Shown here piece by piece: positions 10,954 through 30,005 of a stretch of DNA of 31,570 nucleotides. Under the pieces are notes generated by a model. That model was not told the origin of the DNA. It saw only the letters and a list, made by a program, of their open reading frames with translations, and ran no database searches. How positions within the stretch are numbered: the stretch's first letter is position 1; each line of letters starts with the position of its first letter. The DNA is from a virus. Position numbers and translations under genes: made by a program. Location: the IMG/VR virus record IMGVR_UViG_3300031111_000530, positions 1-31,570 of that record; one strand, written 5' to 3'.

Positions 10954-11383
10954 CCCGAAGCCGAAGCTGCGACACGAGATGCCGCCGGGATTCTCGCTGA
11001 CCAAGCGCGTCGCACGAACTCTCGACTTCGACGAGGTCGAGGCGTACAAGTGCTTCACGCCGAGCGAGTACGACATCGTGGCTCGCATCGTCATCGACTA
11101 TCGGTGGTTTTGGGATTACGCGATCAGGATGGAGCAGCTACAGCAGAACCACGAGCAGCAGATCCACAACCTCGAGTTGCAGCTTCAACTTTGGAAGGAC
11201 ACGACGCAGCGGGTCGACGAGAGTCGGCTACTCGCCGTCAAGCTCTTGAAGGAGGAGCGGTCGACAAAGCTCGAGATACGGAGCGGCACAAAGCTCGCGC
11301 TGTGGCTCACAGGCGGCGCAGCGATCCTCGCAGCAATAGTGGCTGCGGGATTCGGCGGCGCGTACGCGGTGGAGAAGCAATGA
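10886..11383 (+). CDS. Secreted, coiled-coil, C-terminally anchored protein (spanin-partner candidate)
   Basis: 165 residues in a frame overlapping the i-spanin-like gene by 68 bp. An N-terminal signal sequence (MRWMKLVASMILIAYSVAASAG) ends in ASA-G, a signal peptidase I site; there is no lipobox Cys. A coiled-coil Gln/Leu/Glu stretch spans about residues 80-125, and a C-terminal membrane helix spans about 136-160. Thus it would span the periplasm with its C-terminus in the inner membrane. The layout is close to, but not the same as, unimolecular spanins, which have a lipoprotein N-terminus. GAGAGGAG lies before the ATG. Alternative: an unrelated periplasmic phage protein. Confidence 0.5.
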   Translation: MRWMKLVASMILIAYSVAASAGDPKPKLRHEMPPGFSLTKRVARTLDFDEVEAYKCFTPSEYDIVARIVIDYRWFWDYAIRMEQLQQNHEQQIHNLELQLQLWKDTTQRVDESRLLAVKLLKEERSTKLEIRSGTKLALWLTGGAAILAAIVAAGFGGAYAVEKQ

Positions 11384-11853
11384 GCAAGCGCAAGTGGGAA
11401 ATGGTCGAGGGGTTGATCAAGGCCGAGAGCGTTCACACGGTCAACACCAAGATCACGATCTACGACGGGAGCCACGAGCACGACCTGTACGTCAAGCTCG
11501 GGTGGGCCGACGGTCGGTGGGTATGGATCGACATAACCGTGTCGCGCTACACCGCCAAGGACCGCGAGCCAGAGGACGCGAAGCTCGTCGACCTTCGGCG
11601 CAAGATGCTCGAGGTGCATCGGCGGCTGCTCGAGGTCGTTTGCGTTCACGCATCCGAGCTGATGCAGTCGGACGAAAGAACCATCGACGAGATCGTCGAC
11701 CACTGGCGCGGCACTCAGTTCGAGCCAGCAGGAACGTGCGAGTCGATCCGCACCGACGAAAACCAGGGGCGCGTGACCTCGCCGCTCGACGCAGCGGCGA
11801 AGCTGATAGCTCGCAAGCGCGGCGGCTGGGAGCGCAAGCTGCGAGCACTCTGA
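11380..11853 (+). CDS. Stand-alone TSCPD-like domain (class II ribonucleotide reductase C-terminus-like)
   Basis: 157 residues. The region DEIVDHWRGTQFEPAGTCES (103-122) followed by SPLDAAAKLIARK (134-146) resembles the C-terminal TSCPD region of B12-dependent class II ribonucleotide reductase ('eIVd.LrGtrFEPaG...p....SiaDyiar.la'). The earlier LYVKLGWADGRWVWIDITVS and LRRKMLEVHRRLLEVV segments fit the 'vfv..Gk.G......ea..Rlisl.Lr' part of such domains. Orphan TSCPD proteins occur in phages; their role is unknown, possibly nucleotide or metal binding or modulation of host reductase. No reductase catalytic gene is in the window. It overlaps the preceding gene by 4 bp. Confidence 0.5.
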   Translation: MSKRKWEMVEGLIKAESVHTVNTKITIYDGSHEHDLYVKLGWADGRWVWIDITVSRYTAKDREPEDAKLVDLRRKMLEVHRRLLEVVCVHASELMQSDERTIDEIVDHWRGTQFEPAGTCESIRTDENQGRVTSPLDAAAKLIARKRGGWERKLRAL

Positions 11854-11860
11854 GGGCAAC

Positions 11861-12043
11861 ATGGACGAAGACGTCATCGAAAGGATCATCGAGGAGCTGC
11901 GCGAGCAGTACGAAGAAGACTCCGAGGTGTTCACTCAGTGGGAGCAAGAATTTATCGAGAGCATCGACGAGCGGAATTGCTGGGATCATCTTTCGCCGTC
12001 GCAACTCGACAAGCTGTTCCAAATCTACGAGGAGCGGATGTGA
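11861..12043 (+). CDS. Small acidic helical protein
   Basis: 60 residues, mostly Glu/Asp/Gln with a helical pattern (VIERIIEELREQYEED). Strongly acidic; possible inhibitor or DNA mimic, but no family is recognised. The upstream GAGGGCAAC is a modest ribosome binding site. Its stop overlaps the GTG of the next gene. Confidence 0.55.
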   Translation: MDEDVIERIIEELREQYEEDSEVFTQWEQEFIESIDERNCWDHLSPSQLDKLFQIYEERM

Positions 12044-12561
12044 CCGACCTCCCGACGATCATCGTTCACCCGAGCACGCTGCTCGACGTCTTGCTCGAAC
12101 GGGTGGAGCGAACGCCCGGCGACCTCGCCGCGTGGCTCGTGGCGAACGAGCAGAGGGAGACGTCACGGAAGGCGGTCGTCGCCAGCGACGGGATGAGGAT
12201 CGCAATCATCAAAACGATCCCTGGCACGTACTCGTGGCAGCTCGAAGCGATGCACTGCACGCATCAAGCGCACGGCACGCACCGCCGCTACGACAAGCTG
12301 TACTCTCGACTGCGCTCGCTCGTCGACTTGGAAGCGCCCCGATGCACTGAGTGCGACGGCTCGGGTTGGATACCGGCCGACACGGATCGCGGACGAACGC
12401 TGCTCATGCTCGCGCAGAATTTCAGGGTGTACCGCGGCGTTCGCATGGCCGACAATGGGTACGAGGTTGAGTCGCTCGACGCGTCCACGCTACGCGACCA
12501 AGTGACTATGTTCGTCGCTGCACAAGCGAAGAAGGAGGTAGCAGATGAAGAAGCGGGTTGA
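12040..12561 (+). CDS. Unknown protein with CxxCxGxG motif
   Basis: 173 residues from a GTG in a GTGA overlap. The N-terminal half is mixed; at about residues 103-109 it has CTECDGSG, one copy of the DnaJ-like CxxCxGxG zinc motif. One copy alone gives only two ligands. The rest includes a helical segment. Not recognised. It overlaps the following gene by 17 bp. Confidence 0.55.
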   Translation: MTDLPTIIVHPSTLLDVLLERVERTPGDLAAWLVANEQRETSRKAVVASDGMRIAIIKTIPGTYSWQLEAMHCTHQAHGTHRRYDKLYSRLRSLVDLEAPRCTECDGSGWIPADTDRGRTLLMLAQNFRVYRGVRMADNGYEVESLDASTLRDQVTMFVAAQAKKEVADEEAG

Positions 12562-12973
12562 GGTCAGATGCAACACCGAGGGCGTCGTCATCGGTGCGCT
12601 CGAGCTGGAGCCGGGCAAGCACAAGATCACGGCGCAGACATTCGTCGACGCGTTCGTGTTCGACGACAAGCAGTACGATCCGAAGGGCAAGGTGGCGAAG
12701 AACCACCAGCTCGCGCGGTGCCCGCACTGTGACGGGTTCCTCGAGATCGTCGGCACCGAGATCGCCGGAGAGAGCATCGGCAGTTCGGGCAAACCGGCGA
12801 AGCGGATCTCTCGCGAGGAGGCAAGGGCCAACGCGCAGCGCGCGGCGCAGTCCATGACGACAGGTCCGCGTGGCCAGCCTTTGGCCGAGCCGGTGTCGCG
12901 GGCGATCGAGAACATTGGCACCGAGCCGACGATGCGGATCGTCCTCGCTCGCACGACCATCGAGATCGACTGA
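12545..12973 (+). CDS. Unknown small protein with CPHC motif
   Basis: 142 residues. The N-terminal ~50 are strand-rich (VRCNTEGVVIGALELEPGKHKIT). A CPHC pair at about residues 58-61 is followed by an Ala/Arg-rich helix. AAGGAGG ends five bases before the ATG, a strong site. Its last base is shared with the ATG of the next gene (TGATG). No family recognised. Confidence 0.6.
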   Translation: MKKRVEVRCNTEGVVIGALELEPGKHKITAQTFVDAFVFDDKQYDPKGKVAKNHQLARCPHCDGFLEIVGTEIAGESIGSSGKPAKRISREEARANAQRAAQSMTTGPRGQPLAEPVSRAIENIGTEPTMRIVLARTTIEID

Positions 12974-17296: not shown

Positions 17297-17518
17297 ATGA
17301 CCGACGAAACCAAGCAGCCCGAGAAGAAGACACCGAAGTTCAAGGAGGGTGACGAGGTGCGCCTCGTGAACCAGTGGTCGCAGCAGTTCGGCAGCGACGG
17401 CGTTCGCGCAGTCGTCAAGTCGATCCGGCACGACAAGGACGGCGAGCCGATCTACTTCGTGGACGCCGAGCGCCCGCCGATCCCGGTCCAGACAACCGAG
17501 GCCGAACTGAAAATCTGA
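17297..17518 (+). CDS. Small SH3/KOW-like protein
   Basis: 73 residues. After a Lys/Glu-rich start come strands FKEGDEVRLVN and GVRAVVKSIRHDKDGEPIYFVDA, the pattern of small SH3-barrel proteins ('f.~Gd.V.l......~~g~V..i...~g...y.V'). These often bind RNA or protein. A CGGAGG is six bases before the ATG. It is a separate unit between two non-coding gaps. Confidence 0.6.
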   Translation: MTDETKQPEKKTPKFKEGDEVRLVNQWSQQFGSDGVRAVVKSIRHDKDGEPIYFVDAERPPIPVQTTEAELKI

Positions 17519-17545
17519 CCCTGCTCCGCACCTCCGCCTATATCG

Positions 17546-17574
17546 TGGAAAACCAGTATCCGTGCGGGTAAACT
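17546..17574 (+). promoter_or_regulatory. Sigma70-type promoter
   Basis: TGGAAA (17546-17551) and TAAACT (17569-17574) are separated by exactly 17 bp; matches to TTGACA and TATAAT/TAnnnT are 4 of 6 and good. The predicted start is near 17581. It would drive the structured leader and the HD gene cluster. Confidence 0.5.
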
Positions 17575-17583
17575 GGTAGGGTC

Positions 17584-17760
17584 ATGAACGGACGACCTAG
17601 CACCGCCGGGGGCTTTCCCTGGCCCCCGCACCGCCTCTCGGCTGGTCAAGCACCAGCAACGGGACACGACGAACGCCGTCAGGCGATCCGGTCAGACCGG
17701 CCCGTCGACGTCCCGGCCTATCCGGTGCGAGCACGCGGCGCAGCGTCGTCGACTACCTGA
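17584..17760 (+). CDS. Possible leaderless 58-residue ORF (doubtful)
   Basis: An ATG three bases after the predicted transcription start opens a 58-codon frame ending at 17760. The product is rich in Arg, Pro, Ala and Gly and has no clear fold. The frame covers several perfect stem-loops, which suggests that structure, not protein, is selected. It is listed because a start at the 5' end is typical of leaderless messages; it could act as a leader peptide. Confidence 0.15.
   Translation: MNGRPSTAGGFPWPPHRLSAGQAPATGHDERRQAIRSDRPVDVPAYPVRARGAASSTT
17607..17628 (+). terminator. GC stem-loop, terminator or attenuator candidate
   Basis: CGGGGGC (17607-17613) pairs with GCCCCCG (17622-17628) across an 8-nt loop. 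No T-run follows, so it would be a U-less terminator. It lies about 25 nt downstream of the predicted start of the 17546-17574 promoter, which makes attenuation possible. Confidence 0.45.
17641..17715 (+). ncRNA. Structured leader RNA candidate with three-way junction
   Basis: First, a hairpin GCTGGT (17641-17646)/ACCAGC (17652-17657). Then an outer stem CGGGAC (17660-17665)/GTCCCG (17710-17715), continuing after a small internal loop as CGACG (17667-17671)/CGTCG (17703-17707). It encloses two hairpins: CGCC (17674-17677)/GGCG (17682-17685) with loop GTCA, and CCGGT (17688-17692)/ACCGG (17696-17700) with loop CAG. Junction strands are AA, AT and CC. All pairs are Watson-Crick. No known riboswitch consensus (TPP, cobalamin, preQ1, hammerhead core) is recognised. 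It could be a cis-regulatory leader or a small RNA. Confidence 0.4.
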
Positions 17761-17777
17761 ACGCCAGAGGACACGAC

Positions 17778-18347
17778 ATGGAGAAGACCACGATCAGAAA
17801 AAGGAAAGAGGTACTGTCAGCGATCATCGCGCAGTACCAGCTGCCACTGCGCGGCACGCACGGCGTGGCGCATTGGGCGAGGGTGCTCGAGCAAGGCATC
17901 CGCCTCGCGCACGCCAGCGGCGTCGACGAACGAATCGTCGAGGTGTTCGCGCTACTGCACGACGTCGCCAGGGAACACGAGGACGAGTGCAGCCGCCACG
18001 GTCCGCGCGCGACCAAGTTCTTCGCGAAGCACCGCGACCTGTTCCCGTTCAACCCGTCCGACTGGTATGCACTCGTCGCGGCGATGGCGGACCACACCGG
18101 AGGCAAGCACGCGGACGATCCGCGCATCGCGGTCTGCTGGGATGCTGACCGCCTCGACTTCTGGCGAATCGGGATCATGCCCGACCCCGCGTACATGACG
18201 ACAGCGATCGCGAAACGGATCGCGTCGAGCAAGTCGTTCCAGCAGGAGTGCGCCGAGAGGTTCAACCAGCGCGAAGACCAGACGCTCCCCGCGTGGGTTT
18301 CCGCGCGGTGGCCAGAACTCGCGGCGGCGTGGGAGTCGGAGGCATGA
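17778..18347 (+). CDS. HD-domain phosphohydrolase
   Basis: 189 residues. The HD superfamily metal site is visible: THGVAHW (27-33), LLHDVAREHED (59-69; His61-Asp62), ADHTGG (104-109), and CWDADRLDFWR (120-130). Such enzymes hydrolyse phosphate esters of nucleotides or related compounds. Phage members often act on dNTPs or signalling nucleotides; the substrate here is unknown. The protein is preceded by a 259-bp leader containing a promoter and structured RNA, so it heads a separately regulated operon with the zinc-ribbon genes behind it (ATGA overlap). Confidence 0.85.
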   Translation: MEKTTIRKRKEVLSAIIAQYQLPLRGTHGVAHWARVLEQGIRLAHASGVDERIVEVFALLHDVAREHEDECSRHGPRATKFFAKHRDLFPFNPSDWYALVAAMADHTGGKHADDPRIAVCWDADRLDFWRIGIMPDPAYMTTAIAKRIASSKSFQQECAERFNQREDQTLPAWVSARWPELAAAWESEA

Positions 18348-22775: not shown

Positions 22776-22976
22776 ATGGGCGAACCGACACACGTTCGCG
22801 ACCTCGTGCTGCCCGTGCTCGCAGAGATCGCGGAAACCGCGATGAGGCGTGATCGATACGAGGTCGCGTCGATGACAAAGGAAGAGATCCCGGCAGACGG
22901 ATCGGGTAACATGGACGAACACATGGACACGCGAACCCGCAAACCCGCACCCCGCAAGGGTTTCAGCAACTCGTAA
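22776..22976 (+). CDS. Small unknown protein
   Basis: 66 residues from ATG 22776, or 74 from an in-frame ATG at 22752 inside the preceding gene. The helix PTHVRDLVLPVLAEIAETAM is followed by a charged, disordered tail. The AGGTAGG upstream of 22776 favours the shorter form. It is the last gene before an 82-bp gap with two hairpins. Confidence 0.5.
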   Translation: MGEPTHVRDLVLPVLAEIAETAMRRDRYEVASMTKEEIPADGSGNMDEHMDTRTRKPAPRKGFSNS

Positions 22977-22986
22977 CGAACCGCTG

Positions 22987-23002
22987 CGCGGCGCTCGCCG
23001 CG
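22987..23002 (+). terminator. Perfect GC palindrome after the 22776 gene
   Basis: CGCGGCG (22987-22993) and CGCCGCG (22996-23002) are exact inverted repeats around CT. No T-run follows. Likely a U-less terminator, or a DNA palindrome with a binding role. Confidence 0.4.
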
Positions 23003-23019
23003 ACGGTGTCGTCGTGTCT

Positions 23020-23039
23020 GTCGGTTCGGCCGGATCGAC
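23020..23039 (+). promoter_or_regulatory. RNA hairpin before the 23059 gene
   Basis: The 20-nt segment folds end to end as an 8-bp RNA stem with two G-U pairs and loop GGCC. It ends six bases before AGGAGG (23046-23051). The wobble pairs indicate that, if functional, it is read as RNA. Confidence 0.35.
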
Positions 23040-23058
23040 AACAGCAGGAGGCCGCACC

Positions 23059-23601
23059 ATGAGTGACAATCCAGCCGTCGGCGCATTCGTCGACTACTTG
23101 CTCGCCGCTTGGGCCGACAGGGGATTCAAGCCGCAGGGCGACGAGAGAGCCGCAACCCGCGCGCACCTCGTCGAGATGTTCGAGCTGCTCGCCACCGGCG
23201 AGGCGTCGGTGCTCGCAACGATCTACACCGAGGACGGCAGCGACAAGCTGAAGTCTGACTACTTCGGCGCAATGGGGCAGGAGCGGATCGTCGACATGCT
23301 CCGCGTCATTCCGACCGTCGCCGCCAACCTCGCAGCTGGCGCTCGACGCATCGCGCCGCGAGAGCTGGCCGCGCACCTCGCGACCATGCGCGGCGCAGGT
23401 CCGATGGTCGCATCGCAAGTCGCAGACGAGCAACCGCGTCGCGGGAAAGACAGAGAGGACGCGGGTTTGCCGACCGACAACGTCACGCCGCTTCGGAAAC
23501 CCGCGCCACAAGTGGGCGAGAGCGGGTCAAGAAAAAACGACGAGGGGAGCAAGCGAACCCCGGCGACCGGGAACAAAAACAACGGCGAACTGCCTAACTA
23601 G
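23059..23601 (+). CDS. Unknown protein with disordered tail
   Basis: 180 residues. Residues 1-120 are helical (VGAFVDYLLAAWADRGF and following). The last 60 are Lys/Asn/Gly/Pro-rich and probably disordered. CAGGAGG is upstream of the ATG. No family recognised. An unusually AT-rich 116-bp gap follows. Confidence 0.6.
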   Translation: MSDNPAVGAFVDYLLAAWADRGFKPQGDERAATRAHLVEMFELLATGEASVLATIYTEDGSDKLKSDYFGAMGQERIVDMLRVIPTVAANLAAGARRIAPRELAAHLATMRGAGPMVASQVADEQPRRGKDREDAGLPTDNVTPLRKPAPQVGESGSRKNDEGSKRTPATGNKNNGELPN

Positions 23602-23623
23602 CGGAAAACACTGTAGAAAAAGA

Positions 23624-23712
23624 TGCCTCCGAAACCCGAAAAACTGTTGCGAATCGACCGGATAAATCCGATGATCAAAGCATGGTTAGGGTTTCAACAA
23701 ACAACGGAGGCA
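23624..23712 (+). promoter_or_regulatory. Leader with self-complementary ribosome binding site; AT-rich
   Basis: TGCCTCCG (23624-23631) is an exact complement of CGGAGGCA (23705-23712), which is the ribosome binding site of the 23718 gene. In between lie TTGCGA (23647-23652) and GATGAT (23670-23675), a weak 17-bp-spaced promoter, with the inverted repeat CGGAT-AA-ATCCG (23659-23670) over its spacer. Transcripts starting upstream would carry the anti-ribosome-binding site; those from the internal promoter would not. Confidence 0.4.
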
Positions 23713-23717
23713 ACAAG

Positions 23718-24101
23718 ATGGACACCAGCAAGACCAAGGGATTCGAGATCGTCACCGCCGAGGGCGCATTCCACACCAGCACGACGCCCGTCAGCAAGAT
23801 GGCCGAGCTGCTCTCGCTCATGGCCAGCGACCGCACGTTCGTCGTCTGCGAGTTCGACGACGGATGCTTCGACGTGTACGCCGACCTCAACGACTGCCGC
23901 CAGCAGAACGACATGGATGGCGACTTCGACGTGCTCGCCAGCGGGTGCGCCTCGCTGTGGGATGTCAAGGCGTTCGGCGGCGAGCTGCTCGACGCGCTCA
24001 TGGCACTGTTCGAGGGCGAGCTGGCCCCCGAGGCGACGACCGTCTGGAGCGACGAGGCCGCTCAGAAGTACGCCGCGCTCGAGATGCGGGGGGTGTGCTG
24101 A
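23718..24101 (+). CDS. Unknown small acidic protein
   Basis: 127 residues, acidic, with strands (FVVCEFDDGCFDVYADL) and a helix (LLDALMALFEGEL). No family recognised. CGGAGG is seven bases before ATG 23718; an in-frame ATG at 23682 lies upstream of that site and would add 12 non-typical residues. It ends in a TGATG junction with the HTH gene. Confidence 0.65.
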   Translation: MDTSKTKGFEIVTAEGAFHTSTTPVSKMAELLSLMASDRTFVVCEFDDGCFDVYADLNDCRQQNDMDGDFDVLASGCASLWDVKAFGGELLDALMALFEGELAPEATTVWSDEAAQKYAALEMRGVC

Positions 24102-24385
24102 TGTCCCGCCGCCGCTCACTGACCGCCGTTCAGGTCCGCGCCATCCGTCGCATGTACGAGAACCGCATGAGCATCGCGGCGATCTCCGAGTCGCTCGGCA
24201 TCGCCCGATCGACGGTGCAGGAGGTCGCGAGCTGGAAGACCTACACCGACGTTCGCACGCCGGGCGTCGTTCCCTTCGAGCCGCGCAGCGGCAAGCTCAT
24301 GGCGTACAAGCCGACCAACATGACCGGAGTCTTCGTCGCTGTCCCGCTCCCCGTCGACGTCGACCGCGCCCGCGCCTCTCGCTAG
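24101..24385 (+). CDS. Helix-turn-helix DNA-binding protein
   Basis: 94 residues. Residues 7-50 (LTAVQVRAIRRMYEN, then SIAAISESLGIARSTVQEV) form a resolvase/Psq-like helix-turn-helix as found in phage regulators and in homing-endonuclease tails ('Lt..qv..Ir.ly..g.s...iA..lgvsrsTv..i..g.~w..v'). The rest is short and basic/Pro-rich. It is translated with the 23718 gene. Likely a transcription regulator. Confidence 0.7.
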   Translation: MSRRRSLTAVQVRAIRRMYENRMSIAAISESLGIARSTVQEVASWKTYTDVRTPGVVPFEPRSGKLMAYKPTNMTGVFVAVPLPVDVDRARASR

Positions 24386-24406
24386 CTCAACCCCGCACAA
24401 CACAAA

Positions 24407-24430
24407 CGGCGACCGCAACCGCGGCCGTCG
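24407..24430 (+). terminator. Stem-loop after the HTH gene
   Basis: CGGCGACCGC (24407-24416) pairs with GCGGCCGTCG (24421-24430) with one A-C mismatch and one G-U pair; loop AACC. It is followed by TCCATTT. Weak intrinsic terminator. Confidence 0.4.
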
Positions 24431-24446
24431 TCCATTTGGTGGCAGC

Positions 24447-24725
24447 ATGACCCGTGGTGAAGCTGCCCTGTTCTTCTACCCGTTCGCGCTGGCAGCGCTC
24501 GTCGCTCTGCTCTCGCGCGGATGCTTCGCTGTCTTCGGACAAGAGGAGGAGCCATGTCAGACTGGACCGTCGTCATCGAATCGCAACGCTTCAACGCAGA
24601 AGGCGAGCGGACAGCTCCACGAGTCGTCGAGTACGACGGACCAGAAGACCGACAGCAGGAGGCGATCGCCAAGGCGCTCGAGCAGTGGCACGACGAACAG
24701 CAGCAGCAATGCGTCTAGTCATTGA
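24447..24725 (+). CDS. Possible small membrane protein (overlapping)
   Basis: 92 codons from ATG 24447. Residues 6-31 (AALFFYPFALAALVALLSRG and on) form a credible membrane helix, but after about residue 36 the frame runs through the 24554 gene and codes for a Ser/Thr/Lys-rich tail. The ribosome binding site is poor. Either a real membrane peptide with a long overlap, or a chance frame. Confidence 0.3.
   Translation: MTRGEAALFFYPFALAALVALLSRGCFAVFGQEEEPCQTGPSSSNRNASTQKASGQLHESSSTTDQKTDSRRRSPRRSSSGTTNSSSNASSH
24554..24718 (+). CDS. Small unknown protein
   Basis: 54 residues (strand WTVVIES, then a charged helix EAIAKALEQWHDEQQQQ). AGGAGGAG ends three bases before the ATG. No family recognised. 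Confidence 0.5.
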   Translation: MSDWTVVIESQRFNAEGERTAPRVVEYDGPEDRQQEAIAKALEQWHDEQQQQCV

Positions 24726-29116: not shown

Positions 29117-29702
29117 CTGGAGCCTCGTCAAGCTCGACTCGTACGTCAAGTTCGACGGGCGCGACTGGAGGGTGGCCGAGTTCCTCGAGGAGCCGAACAC
29201 GGGCCTCGCTCGTCTCGTTGAGCTGATAGGCGTCGACGAGGTGGTATCGCGTAGCGTCGTTGTACCCGTGGGCTTGCTCGCCGAGCTGGTCGACGCACGC
29301 GACGACGCGAGGATGCTACGAGCCAAGCTCGCGGCACACGAGGAGCAGCTCGACGCCGTGTGGAACGAGGTCAACAGCTGGAATGAGCTGTTCGACACAG
29401 AGGACGAGGGCGCGAAGGTGGCGCAACGAATCTTCGAGCTGATGACGAACCCGCCCGACACGGTCGAGCGACTGACCTCCGCGCTCAACGCTCACGCGAC
29501 GGCGCTCGCCAGCATCGAGCAGGCGGCACGCACACGCGGGTGGAACGAGGAGGTGAACACGCCGCCGTGGTCGTGGCTCGTCGATCGCCTAGTCGACGCG
29601 GAGGAGGACGCGAAGAAGCTGGCGAACGAGCTGATCGAGCAGATCAACAACGAGACGGTTGCGGAGAGTGACGACGCAAGTAATGGGGCCGATCGCGGTT
29701 GA
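29103..29702 (+). CDS. Unknown helical protein
   Basis: 199 residues. The N-terminal ~55 have a strand-rich barrel-like start (YVKFDGRDWRVAEFLEE), and the rest is helical with coiled-coil character. AGGAGGCC lies before the ATG. It is the last gene before the RHH promoter gap. Confidence 0.6.
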   Translation: MPRADWSLVKLDSYVKFDGRDWRVAEFLEEPNTGLARLVELIGVDEVVSRSVVVPVGLLAELVDARDDARMLRAKLAAHEEQLDAVWNEVNSWNELFDTEDEGAKVAQRIFELMTNPPDTVERLTSALNAHATALASIEQAARTRGWNEEVNTPPWSWLVDRLVDAEEDAKKLANELIEQINNETVAESDDASNGADRG

Positions 29703-29759
29703 ATTGTCAACCGTCCAGACCCGACGGCCCGACACGCGTACAAGCCTCGAACGGGAACC

Positions 29760-29808
29760 TTGACACGTACTCGCTGACCCGTACAGACTGTACGCGATAT
29801 GTCCGTAC
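29760..29808 (+). promoter_or_regulatory. Consensus -35, palindromic operator and GTAC array before the RHH gene
   Basis: TTGACA (29760-29765) is a perfect -35. The -10 would be TACAGA (29782-29787, 16-bp spacer) or CAGACT (29784-29789, 18-bp). The perfect palindrome GTACAG-A-CTGTAC (29781-29793) covers it. Further GTAC cores occur at 29738, 29767 and 29805. This is a natural operator for the ribbon-helix-helix protein encoded from 29799. Confidence 0.6.
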
Positions 29809-30005
29809 GCGGGAGGGTGCGAGAAGCACGACTCGAAATCAGGTTGACCGAGCAGGAGAAGCAGTTGCTACGACAAGCCGCCAACGACCGAGGAACGACA
29901 GTCGCCGAGTTCGTCCGAGAGACGCTACTCATGCGGGCGAGAGGCGACGACGAGTGGGCGCGAAGCATGGTGCTCGACGCGCTCACGGAGGCGCTGGCGG
30001 AATGA
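29799..30005 (+). CDS. Ribbon-helix-helix (CopG/Arc-type) repressor candidate
   Basis: 68 residues. ARLEIRLTEQEKQLLRQAAN (10-29) gives the strand-helix A and TTVAEFVRETLLMRA (33-47) the helix B of a ribbon-helix-helix protein, which dimerises and binds DNA by its N-terminal strand. It has no upstream ribosome binding site: the ATG is within about 5 bases of the predicted transcript start, so a leaderless message is likely. An in-frame GTG at 29817 is directly after GGGAGG, too close to be a normal start. The palindrome over its promoter points to autoregulation. Confidence 0.75.
   Translation: MSVRGRVREARLEIRLTEQEKQLLRQAANDRGTTVAEFVRETLLMRARGDDEWARSMVLDALTEALAE

Follow-up and report, generated by a model that had tools for sequence, protein, structure and literature searches.

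A conserved candidate structured RNA, probably on the minus strand, in the largest intergenic gap of a phage genome

The 259-nt gap in front of an HD-domain protein gene probably carries a structured, non-coding RNA on its minus strand, i.e., on the strand opposite to the one on which the first-pass annotation had read a structured leader. The data presented here show that the gap is non-coding and constrained and that a fold is conserved in it, with a preference for the minus strand. As the best explanation, we propose with moderate confidence that a leftward structured RNA of roughly 200 to 230 nt would be complementary to the leader with which the rightward HD-hydrolase transcript begins, and would exert cis-antisense control.

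The window, i.e., the whole stretch of DNA analysed, is a virus record of 31,570 bases, and the gene map places all of its roughly 58 predicted genes on the + strand. With a stop at 17518 and an ATG at 17778, the gap is the largest in the window and has exactly the extent given in the first-pass annotation, whose description can be upheld in part: the elements that it listed are all present, but to call the genome "otherwise gapless" was an overstatement, since the gene map contains 15 further gaps of 25 to 168 nt. The locus is made up as follows.

17297-17518, + strand: upstream small ORF of 73 aa without a family match
17519-17777, no strand assigned: non-coding, constrained intergenic gap (gene map, 89.2% identity, negative ORF codon scores)
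17546-17574, + strand: TGGAAA-17-TAAACT, promoter-like hexamers assigned to the rightward HD transcript (both unchanged in the relative)
17660-17715, + strand: three-way junction described earlier (20 Watson-Crick pairs here, of which the relative lacks 4)
17778-18347, + strand: HD-domain protein of 189 aa with the Shine-Dalgarno sequence AGAGGA at 17766-17771 (weak PF01966/HDIG matches)

The downstream gene had been called an HD phosphohydrolase; the gene does follow the gap, but its HD/HDIG match is weak. The closest bacterial relatives of the protein come almost entirely from planctomycete genomes, mostly at 40 to 48% identity, and distant relatives are found in Vibrio and Roseobacter phages. 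At the end of the contig (30821-31570), a QueD-like 6-pyruvoyl-tetrahydropterin synthase is encoded, possibly a member of a deazapurine pathway with the rest in the missing part.

The only close relative found was IMGVR_UViG_3300034152_000127. Its DnaB-like helicase is 84% identical, it can be aligned along nearly all of the window to about 26.6 kb, and it is collinear, with the gap at the same place. Exact patterns of three conserved blocks and protein scans in IMG/VR gave no other close relative, and searching 50,697 phage records at the nucleotide level turned up no homologue of the gap. A more distant relative, L096, has a topoisomerase in common with the window phage; there, no HD match was obtained and the gap match comprised 15 bases, which is at chance level. 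Over the gap, 28 of 259 positions differ between the two phages and indels are absent (89.2% identity), compared to an identity at fourfold-degenerate sites of 70.9% in nearby genes and 75.7% genome-wide. The gap identity exceeds this fourfold-site identity of 71 to 76% with a p of about 1e-7 to 1e-9, and the gap is therefore under constraint, with the caution that some stretches are near-identical between the two phages, probably through recombination. At 11084-12730, identical runs of up to 187 nt, far above the surroundings, look like a recent exchange. The block 22930-24720 includes the intergenic gaps 22977-23058, 23602-23717 and 24386-24553; identity to the relative in its larger non-coding gaps is 96 to 98%, and this block may be a regulatory region. 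Within it, 23864-24385 gave weak DNA-invertase/DNA-binding-like matches.

If the constraint acted on DNA, i.e., on a promoter, an operator or a recently exchanged segment, no functional RNA would be needed, and the region, being GC-rich, would fold by chance. Indeed, the longest identical stretch at the locus (63 nt, 17495-17557) does not touch the fold but extends over part of the promoter-like region, the half-sites ACCAGT/ACTGGT, with a spacing of 20 bp, might form an operator, and recombination probably accounts for the near-identity of other stretches. We nevertheless regard regulatory DNA without an RNA as highly improbable, since the fold is shared far beyond 86 controls with a similar change number and the changes avoid paired positions more on one strand than on the other (see below).

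Could the gap encode a small protein? A 58-aa ORF on the + strand (17584-17760), which would be translated almost leaderless from the promoter, and an ORF on the minus strand (17597-17734) are both open in both phages, an ATG is retained within a variable stretch, and the minus-strand ORF has 7 synonymous versus 4 nonsynonymous codon changes. Against this, the 58-aa ORF has 12 nonsynonymous and 5 synonymous codon changes relative to the other phage, with 4, 10 and 5 changes at codon positions 1, 2 and 3, and thus mostly at position 2, and no match to it was found in Pfam, PHROG or NCBIfam. The two ORFs score -0.13 and -0.30 per codon; all candidate ORFs in the gap have negative scores, whereas all called genes have positive ones, the lowest being +0.10. 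Neither codon scores nor substitution pattern carry a coding signature, and a small protein gene has, in our judgement, hardly any chance of being the explanation. The HD frame is open from 17601, upstream of its ATG. An upstream extension of the HD protein was rejected: it has no start codon and a negative codon score, and homologues encoded by planctomycete genomes begin at or near this methionine, so that the gap is not a missed N terminus. A tRNA/tmRNA scan found none.

The first-pass annotation had read the gap on the + strand, as a 17-bp-spaced promoter at 17546-17574, followed by a 7-bp GC hairpin, a 6-bp hairpin and a 56-nt three-way junction of 20 Watson-Crick pairs. The hexamers TGGAAA (17546-17551) and TAAACT (17569-17574) have 8 of 12 matches to a sigma-70-type consensus, which may not be that of the host, and 9 sites as good as this pair are present on the + strand of the window. 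In the relative, both hexamers are unchanged and 3 substitutions are confined to the 17-nt spacer. No stronger sigma-70 sites were found by a program scan. A second promoter-like pair, CTGACC-18-TATATC (8 of 12; 17539-17544 with 17515-17520), lies in the 63-nt identical stretch and partly overlaps the stop codon of the upstream gene. The gap 29700-29816, beyond the part aligned with the relative, has TTGACA-16-TACAGA plus GTAC repeats, a better sigma-70-like site than 17546-17574. The hairpins are found at 17607-17613/17622-17628 (7 bp) and 17641-17657 (6 bp), and the junction at 17660-17715 has an energy of -28.3 kcal/mol.

The energy of folding alone is only mildly unusual. Compared to dinucleotide shuffles, the + strand of the region had a z of -1.9 to -2.3 and its reverse complement one of -1.3; in about 8% of the windows elsewhere in this GC-rich genome the + strand z was at least as low, and about 17 places have a 59-nt stretch that equals the + strand junction in stability. 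What distinguishes the strands is the comparison with the relative, in which 4 of the 20 junction pairs are lost and none is compensated (two sequences). Two of these four, plus the lost pair at 17643 in the 6-bp hairpin, are C.A mismatches on the + strand, and such mismatches are G.U pairs on the minus strand. An inverted repeat at the promoter (17576) likewise has a mismatch on the + strand and a pair on the minus strand. As judged from the two sequences, it is the minus-strand fold, and not the + strand junction, that is conserved beyond chance. The minus-strand fold is predicted to have the following parts.

17592-17750, minus strand: structured RNA core of 56 base pairs, the RNA reading from 17750 to 17592 (shared minimum-energy folds, shift test)
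17745-17749, minus strand: closing stem, 5' arm ACGAC, pairing with GUCGU at 17592-17596 (consensus probability 0.96, invariant)
17592-17596, minus strand: closing stem, 3' arm GUCGU
17735-17741, minus strand: second closing stem, 5' arm GCGCCGC, pairing with GCGGUGC at 17600-17606 (probability 1.00)
17600-17606, minus strand: second closing stem, 3' arm GCGGUGC
17701-17728, minus strand: 24-pair rod, 5' side (17710 CG to UG and 17702 GU to AU keep pairing)
17650-17673, minus strand: 24-pair rod, 3' side
17689-17699, minus strand: apical hairpin of 5 bp in the window, 3 of them conserved
17674-17685, minus strand: apical hairpin, 4 bp (change at 17675, G-C to G.U on the minus strand)
17630-17646, minus strand: hairpin ACC.GCC/GGCGGU
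17607-17628, minus strand: 7-bp GC hairpin CGGGGGC/GCCCCCG (single change, located in the loop)
17577 to about 17546, minus strand: terminator-like inverted repeat ACCAGU-(14)-ACUGGU, then UUUUCC, downstream of the core fold

When the minus-strand core (17750 to 17592, 159 nt) was folded independently in both phages, 53 minimum-energy pairs (91%) were shared. Control windows of the alignment (n = 254) shared 20% of their pairs on average and none reached 91%; the mean was 26% for the 86 controls with a similar number of changes. The minimum-energy folds of the + strands share 48% of their pairs, a value matched by 5.5% of the controls. In a shift test, in which the observed substitution pattern was moved along the sequence and the consensus energy recomputed, the minus strand of the core, within boundaries picked after the data had been seen, gave a z of -3.84, compared to a mean of -0.43 (standard deviation, 0.85; lowest value, -2.15) for 72 controls. 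The + strand gave -1.74, also below all 72 controls, and the difference between the strands was as large in 0 of 72 controls. Six further settings for the same region agreed on the minus strand, albeit with a weaker signal in the smallest windows, and the result in a wider window was similar. Column shuffling gave a p of 0.025 for the + strand, and 0 of 200 shuffles reached the minus-strand value; the p-values of simple random-placement tests were weaker than those of tests preserving the clustering of substitutions.

The consensus comprises 56 pairs, and 3 of the 13 changes fall on its 112 paired positions, all 3 of them keeping the pair on the minus strand. Two-sided compensation within the 56 pairs was not seen in the two sequences, and a compensatory double change cannot be shown because there is only one homologue. 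One position favours the + strand: in the closing stem of an alternative + strand fold (17598-17742), U-A is changed to U-G. The asymmetry of G.U pairs, by which GC to GU on one strand equals GC to AC on the other, has been used as a basis for calling the reading direction (PMC1892782), and by the same reasoning the conserved fold most likely sits on the minus strand.

If the region instead worked as a structured leader at the 5' end of the rightward HD mRNA, such as a riboswitch, an attenuator, or a transcript-stabilising or antitermination element, one would expect + strand signals, and some are present. The promoter-like hexamers are conserved with changes confined to the spacer, the region directly precedes a Shine-Dalgarno sequence and an HD start that do not differ between the phages, the core has a z on the + strand of -3.3 in the window and -1.6 in the relative (-2.6 and -1.3 on the minus strand), and the + strand shift score is below that of every control. 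Moreover, the direct repeat GGACACGAC at 17662-17670 and 17769-17777 makes an alternative pairing near the ribosome site possible. However, a minus-strand fold should by itself produce a mirror-image signal on the + strand, and the uncompensated loss of a fifth of the junction pairs, the sharing of 48% of the pairs and the absence of an Rfam match argue against a leader. Rfam (release 15) gave no match at the gathering score anywhere in the window, and at relaxed thresholds on both strands the best match in the gap had an E value of 0.19, far below the family threshold, which agrees with the earlier statement that no known riboswitch consensus fits. We therefore consider a + strand leader unlikely, albeit with some chance of being correct. 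Of the two interpretations given in the first-pass annotation, a ligand-sensing leader or attenuator for nucleotide metabolism is thus not supported, the weak HD/HDIG match of the downstream protein counting against it as well, and a phage small RNA gains support in substance, the region being non-coding and constrained and the fold being kept.

Such a small RNA need not be antisense to the HD gene. A free-standing, trans-acting structured RNA read from the minus strand, binding for example a phage or host protein, would be backed by the same fold and strand evidence and would fit the invariant junction segment (17729-17734) and the compact, closed domain. On the other hand, it matches no known family, a covariance model (R1) run on 77 loci and 31 records recovered the two known copies and no further copy or homologue, and antisense action would be the more economical assumption, given the overlap with the HD leader. 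We consider a trans-acting RNA improbable, and slightly more so the specific idea of a new family of compact, multi-branched phage RNAs (core of about 160 nt) that would serve in trans as structured ligands of phage or host proteins (in packaging, host takeover or counter-defence, for instance) and not as antisense regulators.

In the preferred antisense reading, the 5' end of the leftward RNA would lie at 17750 or higher. The search for a promoter on the minus strand gave nothing convincing; the best sigma-70-type candidate, CTGACA-19-GATCGT (17820-17790), is poor by a consensus that may not be the host's, drops to 7 of 12 matches in the relative and is not better kept there. The identity of 33 nt at 17764-17796 in both phages is uninformative on a minus-strand promoter because the ribosome site and start codon of the HD gene sit there. 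From 17750 to 17592, the RNA would fold into a closed multi-branched domain with two closing stems, the 24-pair rod with its two apical hairpins, and two side hairpins, and its 3' end would be formed by the terminator-like hairpin plus UUUU (17577 to 17548), which is weak. This 6-bp repeat plus T-run at 17548-17577 is, by a criterion set post hoc, the only such site on either strand of the window, and minus-strand pairing survives its one change in the relative (C-G to U.G). The hairpin has -7.8 kcal/mol here and -3.2 kcal/mol, with a different favoured fold, in the relative, and a stricter program scan for terminators did not flag the repeat.

Since the terminator-like hairpin overlies the rightward promoter-like sequence, the RNA would be antisense to the start of the HD transcript, as the exact complement of about its first 170 to 190 nt. 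Pairing with the nascent HD leader, collision of leftward transcription with the rightward promoter, or both would lower expression of the HD operon. Since the promoter-like and terminator-like sequences share their bases and the RNA is complementary to the HD leader, cis-antisense control would be the simplest function; transcription, RNA ends, antisense action and its target are what we infer here. With all genes of the window on the + strand, the leftward transcript would stand alone.

Phage antisense RNAs are established, with OOP, sar and aQ as examples; lambda OOP is antisense to cII, and sar is from P22 (PMC12197685), so that the kind is already known, whereas the candidate itself has no Rfam counterpart. 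Like lambda OOP and P22 sar, it would be a short non-coding RNA that runs against the gene direction and overlaps its target transcript; in the candidate, a terminator-like hairpin would stand at the 3' end. Unlike them, it overlaps the promoter and leader of an HD-hydrolase operon and is a branched domain of 56 pairs predicted from sequence; the proposed likeness is one of functional class. CopA/CopT and RNAI/RNAII are plasmid antisense/leader pairs. The candidate resembles them in that a structured RNA would be the exact complement of an mRNA leader that is itself structured, and differs in being phage borne, in having a non-replication target and in being a prediction. With the riboswitches and attenuators of Rfam it has in common a GC-rich folded region extending from a promoter-like site to a gene, but neither strand reaches any family threshold, and it is the other strand that keeps its fold.

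At this candidate structured RNA locus, reading a single strand would have pointed to a riboswitch. The case also shows that as few as two genomes can suffice to suggest the strand of a phage RNA, if one compares how well each strand retains its pairs. If real, the RNA would add a new control element of the antisense type, lying across the start of an HD-hydrolase operon.
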